This document shows positions 13,281 to 44,599 of a DNA stretch of 56,521 bases, piece by piece. Position 1 is the first letter of the stretch; every line of letters begins with the position of its first letter. Under the pieces are notes generated by a model that was not told where the DNA came from, searched no databases, and worked only from the letters and a program-made list of their open reading frames with translations. The stretch comes from Acidimicrobiia bacterium. GTDB lineage: Bacteria > Actinomycetota > Acidimicrobiia > IMCC26256 > JAMXLJ01. The position numbers and the translations under genes were made by a program. The DNA is taken from the NCBI GenBank assembly GCA_024281095.1, contig JAMXLJ010000013.1, positions 1 through 56,521 on the forward strand, written 5' to 3'.

Positions 13281-13796
13281 TCAGGCGACGTGGGCGACGC
13301 GGCACGCCTCCACCATCGGCCCGACCGGCGGCACCTCCATCACGTGCGACGTGTCGAGATAGCAGATGCGGCCTTCGGTGTTCACGAGCAACAGCACACG
13401 GTCGGGGACGCCCCATTCATTGAGCACGCCGTACGTCGCGCAGACGTCGCCGTGCGGCCAGAAGTCGGCGAGGAGCGGGAACGACAACGTGCCCAGCGCA
13501 CCGGCATACGGGTGCAGCGAGTCGGCGTTGTCGCACGAGATGCCGAACACCTGCACGTTGTACGCGTGAAGCTCCTGCATCTTGCTCTCAACTGAGAGCA
13601 ATTCCTGCGTTCAGGTCGGCGTGAAGGCCGCGCTGAAGAACACGAGCAGGACGGGCCGGCCGGGGTGGTTCTCGAGTCGGTAGCGCGACTTCGGGTGCTC
13701 CCGCACCTCGCCCGCCCGTAGCGACGTGCCGGTGAGCTCGAACGTGGGGGCGACGTCGCCCTCCCGGAGACCGGTTCGCGTGACGTTGTCGTCCAT
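13281..13796 (-). CDS. AhpE-like peroxiredoxin, predicted selenoprotein (in-frame TGA = Sec62)
   Basis: A single 171-residue thioredoxin-fold peroxidase is interrupted by one TGA at 13611-13613. Residues 1-61 end in LVFFSAAFTPT, and the same frame resumes with TQELLSVESKMQEL and runs through VFGISCDN, FPLLADFWPHG and RVLLLVNTEGRI to a normal stop at 13281. In peroxiredoxins of the AhpE group the peroxidatic Cys follows exactly this segment (T-x-x-C then x-x-E-L), so the TGA replaces the catalytic Cys and the residue is read as selenocysteine. A 9-base perfect inverted repeat follows at the right distance (separate entry). Cys88 and Cys119 are candidates for a resolving thiol. ATG is at 13794-13796. 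Without readthrough the product would be a useless 61-residue peptide. Alternatives are a recent nonsense mutation or a base error; the intact downstream frame and the hairpin argue against both. The role is peroxide detoxification in the cytosol. Confidence 0.85.
13582..13601 (-). promoter_or_regulatory. Candidate bacterial SECIS element of the peroxiredoxin
   Basis: On the coding (minus) strand, 9 bases after the TGA, an 8-bp perfect stem TTGCTCTC/GAGAGCAA closes an AGTT loop. The loop begins 18 bases after the TGA and has G in its second position. From memory, bacterial SECIS hairpins need a short apical loop with a G among the first two bases, about 16-37 bases after UGA; this fits. The stem lies inside the coding region, as bacterial SECIS elements do. 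Confidence 0.75.
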
Positions 13797-13843: not shown

Positions 13844-15334
13844 TCAGTCGCGGGCGCGCCGCAGTGCCCGTCCCGGACGTTCCCCGGTGTGCGCGCCGTC
13901 ATGCATCACGCGGGTACCGCCCACCCAGACCGCGGTCACCCCCGCCGGGTACCGCCGGGGCTCGTCGTACGTCCCGGTGTCGTCGATCGTCGCCGGGTCG
14001 AACAGCACGAGGTCGGCCGCCGCCCCGGGTTCGATCGCCCCGCGGCCGGCAAGGCCGAACTTCGCCGCCGGCATCGCCGTCATCCGGCGGATCGCCTCCG
14101 CAAGCGTGAACACGCCGGCATCGCGCGCGTAGTGCCCGAGCACTCGGGGAAACGTTCCGTACAGGCGCGGATGGGGCTTGCCGCCGAACGTCGGGATGCC
14201 GTCGGAGCCGATCATCGTGCTGGGGTGGCCCATCACCGTGCGCACGTCGTCCTCGTTCATCGTCTCCATCACCACGACCGCGCCGTAGCCCTCGGCGTCG
14301 ACGACGGCGCGAGCCGCTTCCACCGGATCGGCGTGGAGCTCTGCGGCGAGGTCCGCGATCGAGCGACGCTCCCACTCCGGGTGCCGGGGCGCGGAGGCGA
14401 GCGTGATGCGTTCCCACTCCACGTCCCCGACGCCGTGCGCCCGCTCCTCGTGGTTTTGCAGCACTGCGAACAGTGCCGTGCTGCCGGCGGTGTAGGGGTA
14501 CTGGTCCGCGGTGACGTCGACACCGCGCGAGCGTGCTCGCTCGATCAGGGCCAGGGAGTCGTGCACGAGACCCCACGCCGAGCGACCACTCGCCTTGTGA
14601 TGGGAGATCTGCACCGGTACGCCGCCGTCCGCGCCGATCCGGATGGTCTCGGCGACCGCGTCGAGCAGCCCGTCGCCCTCGTTTCGCATGTGGCTGGCGT
14701 AGACGCCGCCGGATTGCGCCATCTCCTGCGCGAGGGTCACGAGCTCGTCGGTCTGTGAGTAGCGCCCCGGCTCGTAGACGAGACCGCTCGAGTACCCGAT
14801 GCACCCCGCGTCCAGGCCCGCCGCGAGTGTGTCGAGCATTCCGGCGAGCTCGCGGTCGGACGGCGGTCGCCGGTCGTTGCCCATGACGTCGAAGCGCAGG
14901 GTGCCGTGACCCACGAGGACGGCGACGTTGAGGCTCGGTGGATGACGGTCGACGGCGTCGAGATAGTCGGCGTAGGTCGTCCACGCCGGCAAGCGGTCTC
15001 GGTGCGCGTCGGCGCCGAAGAACGGGAGATAACGCTGGGCGGCCTCGTGTGGTGCCGCGCCCAGGCCGCAGTTGCCCACGACCGTCGTCGTCACACCCTG
15101 CGCGACCTTGAAGTCCATCTCCGGCGTGAGGAACACGGCGAAGTCGTCGTGGCTGTGCACGTCGATGAAGCCCGGCGCGAGGGCGAGCCCGGTGGCCGCG
15201 ACTTCGGTCGCGCCAGCCTCACGCGTCAGGTCTCCGACGGCCGCGATCGTGCCGCCGGAGACGCCGACGTCAGCCAGGCATGGCGGGCCGCCGGTGCCGT
15301 CGTAGACGGTCGCGCCGCGGATCACCAGATCCAT
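13844..15334 (-). CDS. N-acyl-D-amino-acid deacylase-family amidohydrolase
   Basis: A 496-residue amidohydrolase-superfamily enzyme. The first 55 residues form the small beta domain (MDLVIRGATVYDGTG), then the metal-binding H60-S-H62-D-D, the GNCGLGAAP strand, CIGYSSGLVYEPG, ASHMRNEGDGLLDAV and QISHHKASG, all characteristic of the D-aminoacylase branch, which releases D-amino acids from N-acyl forms using one or two zinc ions. The C-terminus returns to the beta domain (GRGAIEPGAAADLVLFDP). The protein is cytosolic. The start at 15332-15334 gives the usual family length. It lies between the membrane protein upstream (27 bases) and the predicted Sec-peroxiredoxin downstream (47 bases) on the same strand, so they may be co-transcribed. 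Confidence 0.88.
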   Translation of the reverse strand: MDLVIRGATVYDGTGGPPCLADVGVSGGTIAAVGDLTREAGATEVAATGLALAPGFIDVHSHDDFAVFLTPEMDFKVAQGVTTTVVGNCGLGAAPHEAAQRYLPFFGADAHRDRLPAWTTYADYLDAVDRHPPSLNVAVLVGHGTLRFDVMGNDRRPPSDRELAGMLDTLAAGLDAGCIGYSSGLVYEPGRYSQTDELVTLAQEMAQSGGVYASHMRNEGDGLLDAVAETIRIGADGGVPVQISHHKASGRSAWGLVHDSLALIERARSRGVDVTADQYPYTAGSTALFAVLQNHEERAHGVGDVEWERITLASAPRHPEWERRSIADLAAELHADPVEAARAVVDAEGYGAVVVMETMNEDDVRTVMGHPSTMIGSDGIPTFGGKPHPRLYGTFPRVLGHYARDAGVFTLAEAIRRMTAMPAAKFGLAGRGAIEPGAAADLVLFDPATIDDTGTYDEPRRYPAGVTAVWVGGTRVMHDGAHTGERPGRALRRARD

Positions 15335-42432: not shown

Positions 42433-42996
42433 TCACACTGCGAGCGCGGCGATGACCTCGTCGATCGACGCGTGGTCGGTGCTGTCGGCATCGAGGTGCT
42501 CGTAGCGAACGTTCGCTCCGGGGCCGAGCACGAATGTCGCGCCCAGTTGTGTCACCCGCTTGCCGGCCCGGTGCACGTGGTGTCCGTTGCGCCACGCCTG
42601 CACCGAGGCCCGCCACGTGCGCGGGTGCAGCAGCTCGGGAAAAGGAACGGCGCGCACCGAGGCCGCGCGAGCGGCCGCGCCGTCGTCGTCGACGAGCACG
42701 AGGAACGGAATCTGCTCGTCGTGCACGAACGCAGCCGCATAGCGGCGGTCTCCCGTGCCGATCGCGACGACCTCAGCGCCCTTGGCCGTGATCTGGTCGT
42801 ACCGGCTGCGCAACTGCGCGGCGTGCTCGCGGCAGTGCAGTCAACCGAAGTGCCGGAGGAACACCAACACGACCGGTCGGTCGCGCCAGCTGTCGCCCAG
42901 CCGGTGCATCGCACCGTCGGGGCCGGACAGTTTCAGATCGGCGAGCGCGTCGAGGTCCACGGCCGGAAGCGTACGCCCGCCCGGCCACAGCGGCAC
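42433..42996 (-). CDS. PRXL2/AhpC-TSA-like redox protein, predicted selenoprotein (UxxC, TGA = Sec52)
   Basis: A 187-residue thioredoxin-fold protein is broken by one TGA at 42841-42843. Upstream residues GRTLPAVDLDALADLKL and DRPVVLVFLRHFG lead straight into the TGA, and the same frame continues LHCREHAAQLRSRYDQI, AEVVAIGTGDR, FLVLVDDDG and ATFVLGPGANVRYEH to a normal stop at 42433. Close relatives have FGCxxCREH here, so the TGA sits at the first Cys and the motif becomes U52-L-H-C55. Hence a UxxC redox centre is likely rather than a pseudogene. The GTG start at 42994-42996 lies four bases after the TPP-enzyme stop, in the same operon as that enzyme. A candidate SECIS is listed separately. 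The role is thiol/peroxide reduction, perhaps protecting the operon's enzyme; that is inference. Confidence 0.83.
42805..42822 (-). promoter_or_regulatory. Candidate bacterial SECIS element of the PRXL2-like gene
   Basis: Counting from the TGA on the coding strand, bases 22-25 (GCGC) pair with 30-33 (GCGC) around an AGTT loop at 26-29, with two more pairs below one mismatch. The loop is identical to the one in the other predicted selenoprotein and has G in position two. A competing fold, bases 6-9 and 11-13 with 21-27 around a 7-base loop (AGCACGC), also has G second. The stem is shorter than in the first gene, so this call is weaker. Confidence 0.5.
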
Positions 42997-43000
42997 TGCC

Positions 43001-44599
43001 TCATCCCGCGCCGCGGAAGCTGCGGCCCGGGAAGTACTCGGCGGCCGGGTCCACGAGCACGTTGACGATCGCCGGTGCCTCGGCCGCCAGGGCCCGTGAG
43101 AGCGCCGGGCGCAGCTCCTCGGGACGTTCGACCAAGATGCCCTCGCCGTCGAACGCCGGTGCCATCCGCTCGTAGTGGCGTACACCGAGCGGGACCCACT
43201 GGGCGCTCCAGCCCAGGTTGTTGAGCACCACCGTGGTGATGGGCAGCCCGAAGCGCGCCGCGGTGTCGAGCTCCATCGCGTGGAACCCGAACGAACCGTC
43301 GCCGACGACCCAGACGACCTGGGTGCCCGGCCGCGCGCACGCCGCCGCGAGCGCGAAGCCGATGCCGTGACCGATGCATCCGAGGTTTCCCATGGTCGGC
43401 GTCCGGCCCGGTTCGTAGGCGGGGAACGTCGCGTTCGTCCACATGAGCATGTTGCTGGCGTCCGCGATCACGGTCGCGTCCCGACGCAGCAACGAAGCGA
43501 GCTCCATACAGACCCGGAGCGGATGCAGGGGGACGGCATCGGAACGCGCGAGCTCCTGCTTGGCGGCAGCAATCCGCTCGCGCTGCCCGCGCAGCGACGA
43601 GATCCATTCGTCGGTTGCGAGCGGCTCGGCCTTCTCGCTGAGCTGACGCAGTGCCGCCTTCGCGTCGGCGACCATCCCGAGGCTCACCGGCACGCGGTTC
43701 CGGCCGATCTCGCGCGGGTTCACGTCGATCTGGATCATGTGGTCGAGGTGCGGAAAGAACCCGTAGCCGAAGAAGTAGTCGAGCTGCTTGCCCACGACGA
43801 GCAGCACGTCGGCCTGGTACACGATGTTCTGCCAGTCCTGGCCGAAGCACAGCGGGTGGTCGTCGGCGACGATGCCCCGCGCCGCCTGCCGCGTCACGAG
43901 GGGAACACGCGCTCGTTCGACGAACATGCGCAGCTCCTCACCGGCGCCGGCCCACCACACGCCACTGCCGGCGACGACAGCCGGCCGTCGCGCTCCCGCG
44001 AGCAACTCGAGCGCGCGGGCGACGTCGGCGTCGGCCGGCGCGCCACCGCGAGCCAGCGACGCGGCGGCAACGGGGCTCTGCACCGTCTCCTCGTCGACGA
44101 CGCTGTGCACGAGATCGATCGCGAGCTCGAGGTACACCGGCCCCGGTCGGCCCGTCGTGGCCTCGCGGAACGCGAGATCGACGTATTCGGGGATGCGATC
44201 GGCGTGGTACACCCGGCGGGCCCACTTCGTGACGGGCCGCACGATGTCGAGCTGGTCGAGCGACTCGACCTCGCCCGTGTCCTGGCCCCGAAGCGTCGCC
44301 GCCCCGGCGATGCACACGAGCGGCGAACCGCTGTTCCACGCGTTCGCGATGCCAGTGAGCGCGTTCGTGAGACCGGGCCCCGCGGTGACGAGGCACACAC
44401 CAGGTTGCCCCGTCGCGAGCGCCCAGCCCTCGGCCGCGTGCGCGGCGGCCGCCTCGTGCCTCACGTCCACCACCGTGATTCCGAGGCGCTTCGCCGCGTT
44501 CCACGTCGGGTCGATGTGTCCGCCGGCGAGCGCGAAGACGTGACTCACACCGGCGCGCTGCAACGCCGTGGCCACGAGCTCGCCACCGGTGCGGGCCAT
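43001..44599 (-). CDS. Thiamine-diphosphate-dependent enzyme (acetolactate synthase/2-hydroxyacyl-CoA lyase-like)
   Basis: A 532-residue TPP enzyme of the acetolactate synthase family. The PYR domain has HEAAAAHAAEGWALATGQPGVCLVTAGPG, with the catalytic Glu in RHEAAA; the central domain has DVLLVVGKQLDYFFGYG; the PP domain has GLGCIGHGIGFALAAAC-type sequence and the metal-binding GDGSFGFHAMELDTAARFGLPITTVVLNN. Family members include acetolactate synthase, oxalyl-CoA decarboxylase and benzaldehyde lyase; the substrate cannot be fixed. The start is ATG 44597-44599 in a TGATG overlap with the preceding gene (a GTG is one codon earlier). It is third in an operon of SDR, small protein, this enzyme, and Sec redox protein. 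Confidence 0.85.
   Translation of the reverse strand: MARTGGELVATALQRAGVSHVFALAGGHIDPTWNAAKRLGITVVDVRHEAAAAHAAEGWALATGQPGVCLVTAGPGLTNALTGIANAWNSGSPLVCIAGAATLRGQDTGEVESLDQLDIVRPVTKWARRVYHADRIPEYVDLAFREATTGRPGPVYLELAIDLVHSVVDEETVQSPVAAASLARGGAPADADVARALELLAGARRPAVVAGSGVWWAGAGEELRMFVERARVPLVTRQAARGIVADDHPLCFGQDWQNIVYQADVLLVVGKQLDYFFGYGFFPHLDHMIQIDVNPREIGRNRVPVSLGMVADAKAALRQLSEKAEPLATDEWISSLRGQRERIAAAKQELARSDAVPLHPLRVCMELASLLRRDATVIADASNMLMWTNATFPAYEPGRTPTMGNLGCIGHGIGFALAAACARPGTQVVWVVGDGSFGFHAMELDTAARFGLPITTVVLNNLGWSAQWVPLGVRHYERMAPAFDGEGILVERPEELRPALSRALAAEAPAIVNVLVDPAAEYFPGRSFRGAG

Follow-up and report, generated by a model that had tools for sequence, protein, structure and literature searches.

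A candidate AhpE-like selenocysteine peroxiredoxin encoded across an in-frame UGA in a selenoprotein-rich actinobacterial genome

A minus-strand gene in the window (the whole stretch of 56,521 nucleotides analyzed here) very probably encodes an AhpE-like peroxidase with one selenocysteine (Sec), inserted by recoding of a UGA codon. We favor this reading of the sequence because the frame is intact, the Sec falls in a Cys column, a hairpin accompanies the UGA, and the genome holds the sel machinery along with other Sec genes. Sec-containing peroxiredoxins (Prx) are a known selenoprotein family (PMC13188914, PMC1794560). Those with a TxxU motif had already been recognized, and the window gene would add an AhpE-like one, in a genome that appears rich in selenoproteins.

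The frame of 171 codons reads from 13796 to 13281, and its sole internal stop is the TGA at 13613-13611, which stands between FFSAAFTPT and TQELL (Table 1). A preliminary description of this DNA had proposed that two split minus-strand ORFs are one peroxiredoxin interrupted by a single TGA, and both the frame and a match to AhpC-TSA that runs across the TGA agree with this. It had also held that standard gene finders miss the selenoprotein; ORF calling with table 11 indeed splits the gene, returning just the downstream piece (13281-13601, 106 aa) and leaving a 61-aa fragment upstream.

Table 1. Positions of the peroxiredoxin gene, its neighbor, its hairpin and the other candidate selenoprotein genes of the genome
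Feature	Location	Strand	Details
AhpE-like selenocysteine peroxiredoxin gene (predicted)	13281..13796	-	ATG at 13796; 171 codons; stop TGA 13283-13281
Codon 62, in-frame TGA, read as Sec at the peroxidatic position (predicted)	13611..13613	-	Aligned column: 60 C, 8 U, 1 S
Amidohydrolase gene (Amidohydro_3), possible operon partner	13844..15334	-	Its end lies 47 nt upstream of the Prx ATG
Bacterial SECIS hairpin core (predicted)	13582..13601	-	8-bp stem UUGCUCUC/GAGAGCAA; loop AGUU at 13593-13590
SECIS hairpin including 3-bp lower stem GCA/UGC (predicted)	13577..13608	-	Minimum-energy fold of 41-nt stretch
Two Prx with TPGU	contigs 166, 133		TGA at expected Sec site
SelL-related redoxin, UxxC, GFAUPFC	contig 102		Below NCBIfam cut-off of SelL-related subfamily
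SelL-related redoxin candidate, FLRHFGULHC	42433..43185 (stretch scanned)	-	TGA first in UxxC; below the subfamily's NCBIfam cut-off
Two paralogous ResA-like WAxxUGC proteins (L111, L110)	contigs 93, 162		TGA at expected Sec site
Formate-dehydrogenase-like protein (L119), ARIUHSS	contig 142:13778-16609		TGA at Sec site

The joined protein matches Pfam AhpC-TSA (PF00578) from residue 13 to residue 146, a span that includes the TGA codon (E 4e-22; 78.8 bits against a gathering score of 26), and its best matches of solved structure are those of Mycobacterium tuberculosis AhpE (1xxu/4x0x, E 3e-13). We aligned 69 Prx-like proteins from the window's genome and from its relatives in order to inspect the peroxidatic (CP) column. 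This column holds Cys in 60 proteins, Sec (TGA) in 8 and Ser in 1, so that 68 of 69 carry Cys or Sec there. The frame and this column together confirm that the TGA occupies the place of the peroxidatic Cys, as had been claimed. The active-site Thr59 and Arg133 are both kept in the window protein. Thr, Sec and Arg of the PxxxT/SxxC-plus-Arg pattern are thus present, while the Pro, found in 65 of the 69 proteins, is replaced by Ser. Cys residues stand at positions 88, 119 and 145, the latter two rare among homologs. The residue five positions past CP is Leu, which makes this a one-Cys type lacking a resolving Cys at that site. A Cys at +5 is found in none of the 8 Sec forms versus 44 of the 60 Cys forms, as raw counts that ignore kinship.

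The stem of a hairpin, UUGCUCUC[AGUU]GAGAGCAA, opens after 9 spacer bases downstream of the UGA, and the distance from the UGA to the loop is 17 nt. The preliminary description had a perfect stem of 8-9 bp with an AGUU loop at this spacing; we found 8 bp, since the would-be ninth pair is A-G. Compared with the bacterial SECIS model (PMC13188914), the predicted structure agrees in every element, with 8 bp, a 4-nt loop starting A-G-U, the 17-nt spacing and a hairpin energy of -15.7 kcal/mol. Synonymous recodings, which kept the peptide and followed the codon usage of the window, were used to judge how often such features arise. Among 5000 of them, 73 had a perfect stem of 8 bp or more with a G at loop position 1-2, and among 20,000, 7 had an AGUU-capped stem of at least 4 bp, the latter figure being indicative only because the motif was seen before counting. 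Part of the stem consists of the rare codons TTG, TCA and GTT (0.09, 0.06 and 0.04), and such rarity occurred in 149 of 20,000. The bulk stability of a 45-nt stretch was not unusual, with 442 of 1000 recodings as low in folding energy, which places the signal in the stem, the loop and the rare codons. An Rfam scan of the window gave no matches.

We searched the assembly from which the window comes (4.39 Mb, 98% complete) for the machinery of Sec insertion. A tRNA-Sec gene (selC) with anticodon TCA is on contig 44, selA (475 bits versus a curated cut-off of 268) and selB (332 bits versus 242) adjoin each other on contig 112, and selD is on contig 30 (411 bits versus 125). All four genes, each scoring above its curated cut-off, are therefore present, and an objection from missing machinery falls away. 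The contigs that carry them have a GC content of 0.70-0.71, and their tetranucleotide profiles correlate with that of the window at r of 0.987-0.992. This composition check gave no sign of a mis-binned contig, and mis-binning is unlikely given the agreement in both measures.

With this machinery in place, one may ask whether the UGA is read through in some other way, by a suppressor tRNA or with insertion of Cys or Trp and not Sec. Any recoding of the UGA would open the frame, and UGA read as Cys would also yield an active Prx. UGA is, however, the ordinary stop codon of both the Prx gene and its upstream amidohydrolase neighbor, and the recoded UGAs that we found sit at Sec or redox positions in a genome with tRNA-Sec (TCA) and selAB. 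We regard readthrough of this kind as the most improbable of the alternatives and Sec insertion as the preferred reading.

Elsewhere in the phylum, three more families (L072; L079 and L093; L126) have AhpE-like homologs with a TGA in the same column, and the genomes that carry them are all selA-positive. Among genomes with Cys forms, some have selA and others do not. The closest relative of the window Prx is L072, at 41% identity, with no closer ortholog. One other genome of the same genus was searched and contains selA and no close copy of the gene; the viral contigs searched held no relative of it. The window's own genome also encodes a Cys homolog, with CxxxxC, on contig 167. In a phylogenetic tree of a smaller set of these proteins the Sec label requires about 5 changes, at least 3 of them forced by well-supported branches, so that repeated exchange between Sec and Cys is probable among these Prx. 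Exchange of Cys and Sec in Prx was reported earlier (PMC1794560). A scan of genome contigs also turned up one distant Acidobacterial homolog (L063:3986-4423) with Ser at the CP column, which shares the stretch WPHGDVCA with the window protein.

These comparisons bear on whether the gene is simply broken, a Cys codon having become TGA by mutation in a pseudogene or by sequencing or assembly error. The absence of a close ortholog, the long branch of the window protein and its derived motif (Ser for Pro) are what such a history might leave, and the sequence is a MAG consensus without reads. Against this, the 171 codons are disrupted once, at the catalytic column, and the TGA is followed by a fitting hairpin in which some of the codons are rare. 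Homologs of other families also carry a TGA at this place in the alignment. The complete Sec machinery of the genome, together with seven other genes patterned alike at a Sec/Cys site, argues in the same direction. We consider a broken gene very unlikely and a functional Sec codon the better explanation.

The description of the protein as AhpE-like is right in that AhpE is its nearest relative by sequence, while its place among the Prx subfamilies is loosely resolved, since it lies on a long branch with weak support for the nearest group (82/38). Like known bacterial Sec-Prx (PF00578 with TxxU; PrxU, NF040737), it has the fold, a predicted Sec after T-x-x and a bSECIS directly downstream. It differs from PrxU in scoring 36.2 bits against that model, below the NCBIfam cut-off of 270, in being nearer to AhpE by sequence and in having Ser for the motif Pro. 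With M. tuberculosis AhpE (Rv2238c; 1xxu, 1xvw, 4x0x) it shares the DFWPHG stretch, the Thr, the Arg and the lack of a Cys five residues after CP, whereas Sec replaces Cys and Ser replaces Pro, in an alignment that spans residues 40-151 only. The closest Sec relative (L072:1504-2340, in genome G476) has its TGA in the same column. Unlike the window protein, it has an intact PxxxTxxU and carries, fused at its C-terminus, a glutaredoxin domain with CTSWCPDC. An AlphaFold2 model of the window protein, built with one homolog as input, had a mean pLDDT of 40.9 and was set aside.

By analogy with known systems, we expect that UGA-62 is recoded by SelB-GTP-Sec-tRNA(Sec) bound to the in-gene hairpin 9 nt downstream. 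The resulting selenolate would lie at the N-terminus of helix alpha-2, where Thr59 and Arg133 would assist it if their roles follow the Prx fold, and, as in the Prx family, it would attack the peroxide to give a selenenic acid. Because there is no Cys five residues past CP, an external thiol or redoxin, and not an internal residue, would probably resolve the selenenic acid. The glutaredoxin fusion of the closest relative points in the same direction as the reductant of M. tuberculosis AhpE, which is mycoredoxin-1 with mycothiol (PMC4360819). A search of the window's own genome for a mycoredoxin found no clear one, the best match having 22.6 bits versus a cut-off of 89.5.

The long branch leaves room for relaxed constraint or altered function in the window protein. 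Sec might be inserted into a protein that serves as a redox sensor or specialized reductase on the Prx fold and not as a general peroxidase. A Ser where the motif has Pro would suit such a role, as would the Cys residues at 88, 119 and 145 with their two rare positions, and the Acidobacterial homolog retains WPHGDVCA even with neither Cys nor Sec at CP. The active-site Thr and Arg are nevertheless conserved, and the full PxxxTxxU and glutaredoxin fusion of the closest Sec homolog fit a peroxidase joined to its reductant. A sensor or reductase is the least improbable of the alternatives, though still unlikely, and a one-Sec peroxidase remains our preferred assignment.

Searching the genome with AhpC-TSA and Fdh-alpha recovered at least 7 more genes in which a single TGA falls on the expected Sec site (Table 1), a lower bound as two families were searched. 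The contig 93 protein matches NF041054 (WAxxUGC_long) at 554 bits versus a cut-off of 300, and it and its paralog on contig 162 have identical SECIS cores, CCUGCC[CGGGU]GGCAGG. The second candidate in the window, near 42.8 kb, is a redoxin gene split by its TGA, with a GCGC[AGUU]GCGC hairpin 25 nt downstream. The formate dehydrogenase alpha homolog has a strong hairpin, CGUCCCC[AGUUU]GGGGACG. AGUU-capped hairpins thus occur at 4 of the 8 UGA sites of this genome (the window Prx, the formate dehydrogenase and both SelL-related redoxins), and loops at the remaining 4 start C-G.

Putting right a gene that table-11 annotation had split brings to light 8 or more candidate Sec genes in one actinobacterial genome. 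The genome is taken to be actinobacterial from its AhpE-type relatives (Mycobacterium structures) and from the composition of the set of relatives compared. With AGUU loops at 4 sites and C-G-starting loops at 4, these genes offer a natural way to test which SECIS features a single SelB requires, and whether Sec frees a Prx from the resolving Cys and even from the motif Pro. It is possible, though we hold the proposal to be rather doubtful, that the organism is an unreported selenoprotein-rich actinobacterium. Thiol peroxidases and redoxins would then predominate among its 8 or more Sec genes, its SelB would read a shared AGUU-capped SECIS at half the sites, and the window protein would be a diverged Sec Prx type with Ser for a near-invariant Pro.

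Several other TGA matches were rejected. That on contig 113 is a Cys thioredoxin with TGA as its normal stop, that of G345 is a Cys protein with the TGA outside the domain, and in that of G140 (L065) a different redoxin motif, UPPC, stands at a shifted position. Farther downstream in the formate dehydrogenase-like gene, the matches move to another open frame (1111 and 894 aa), which may reflect a frameshift or an error of assembly. The TPGU Prx on contig 166 (L069, 1-8000) and one from another family (L066) lie near what looks by eye like a 2Fe-2S small subunit of the CO-dehydrogenase type.
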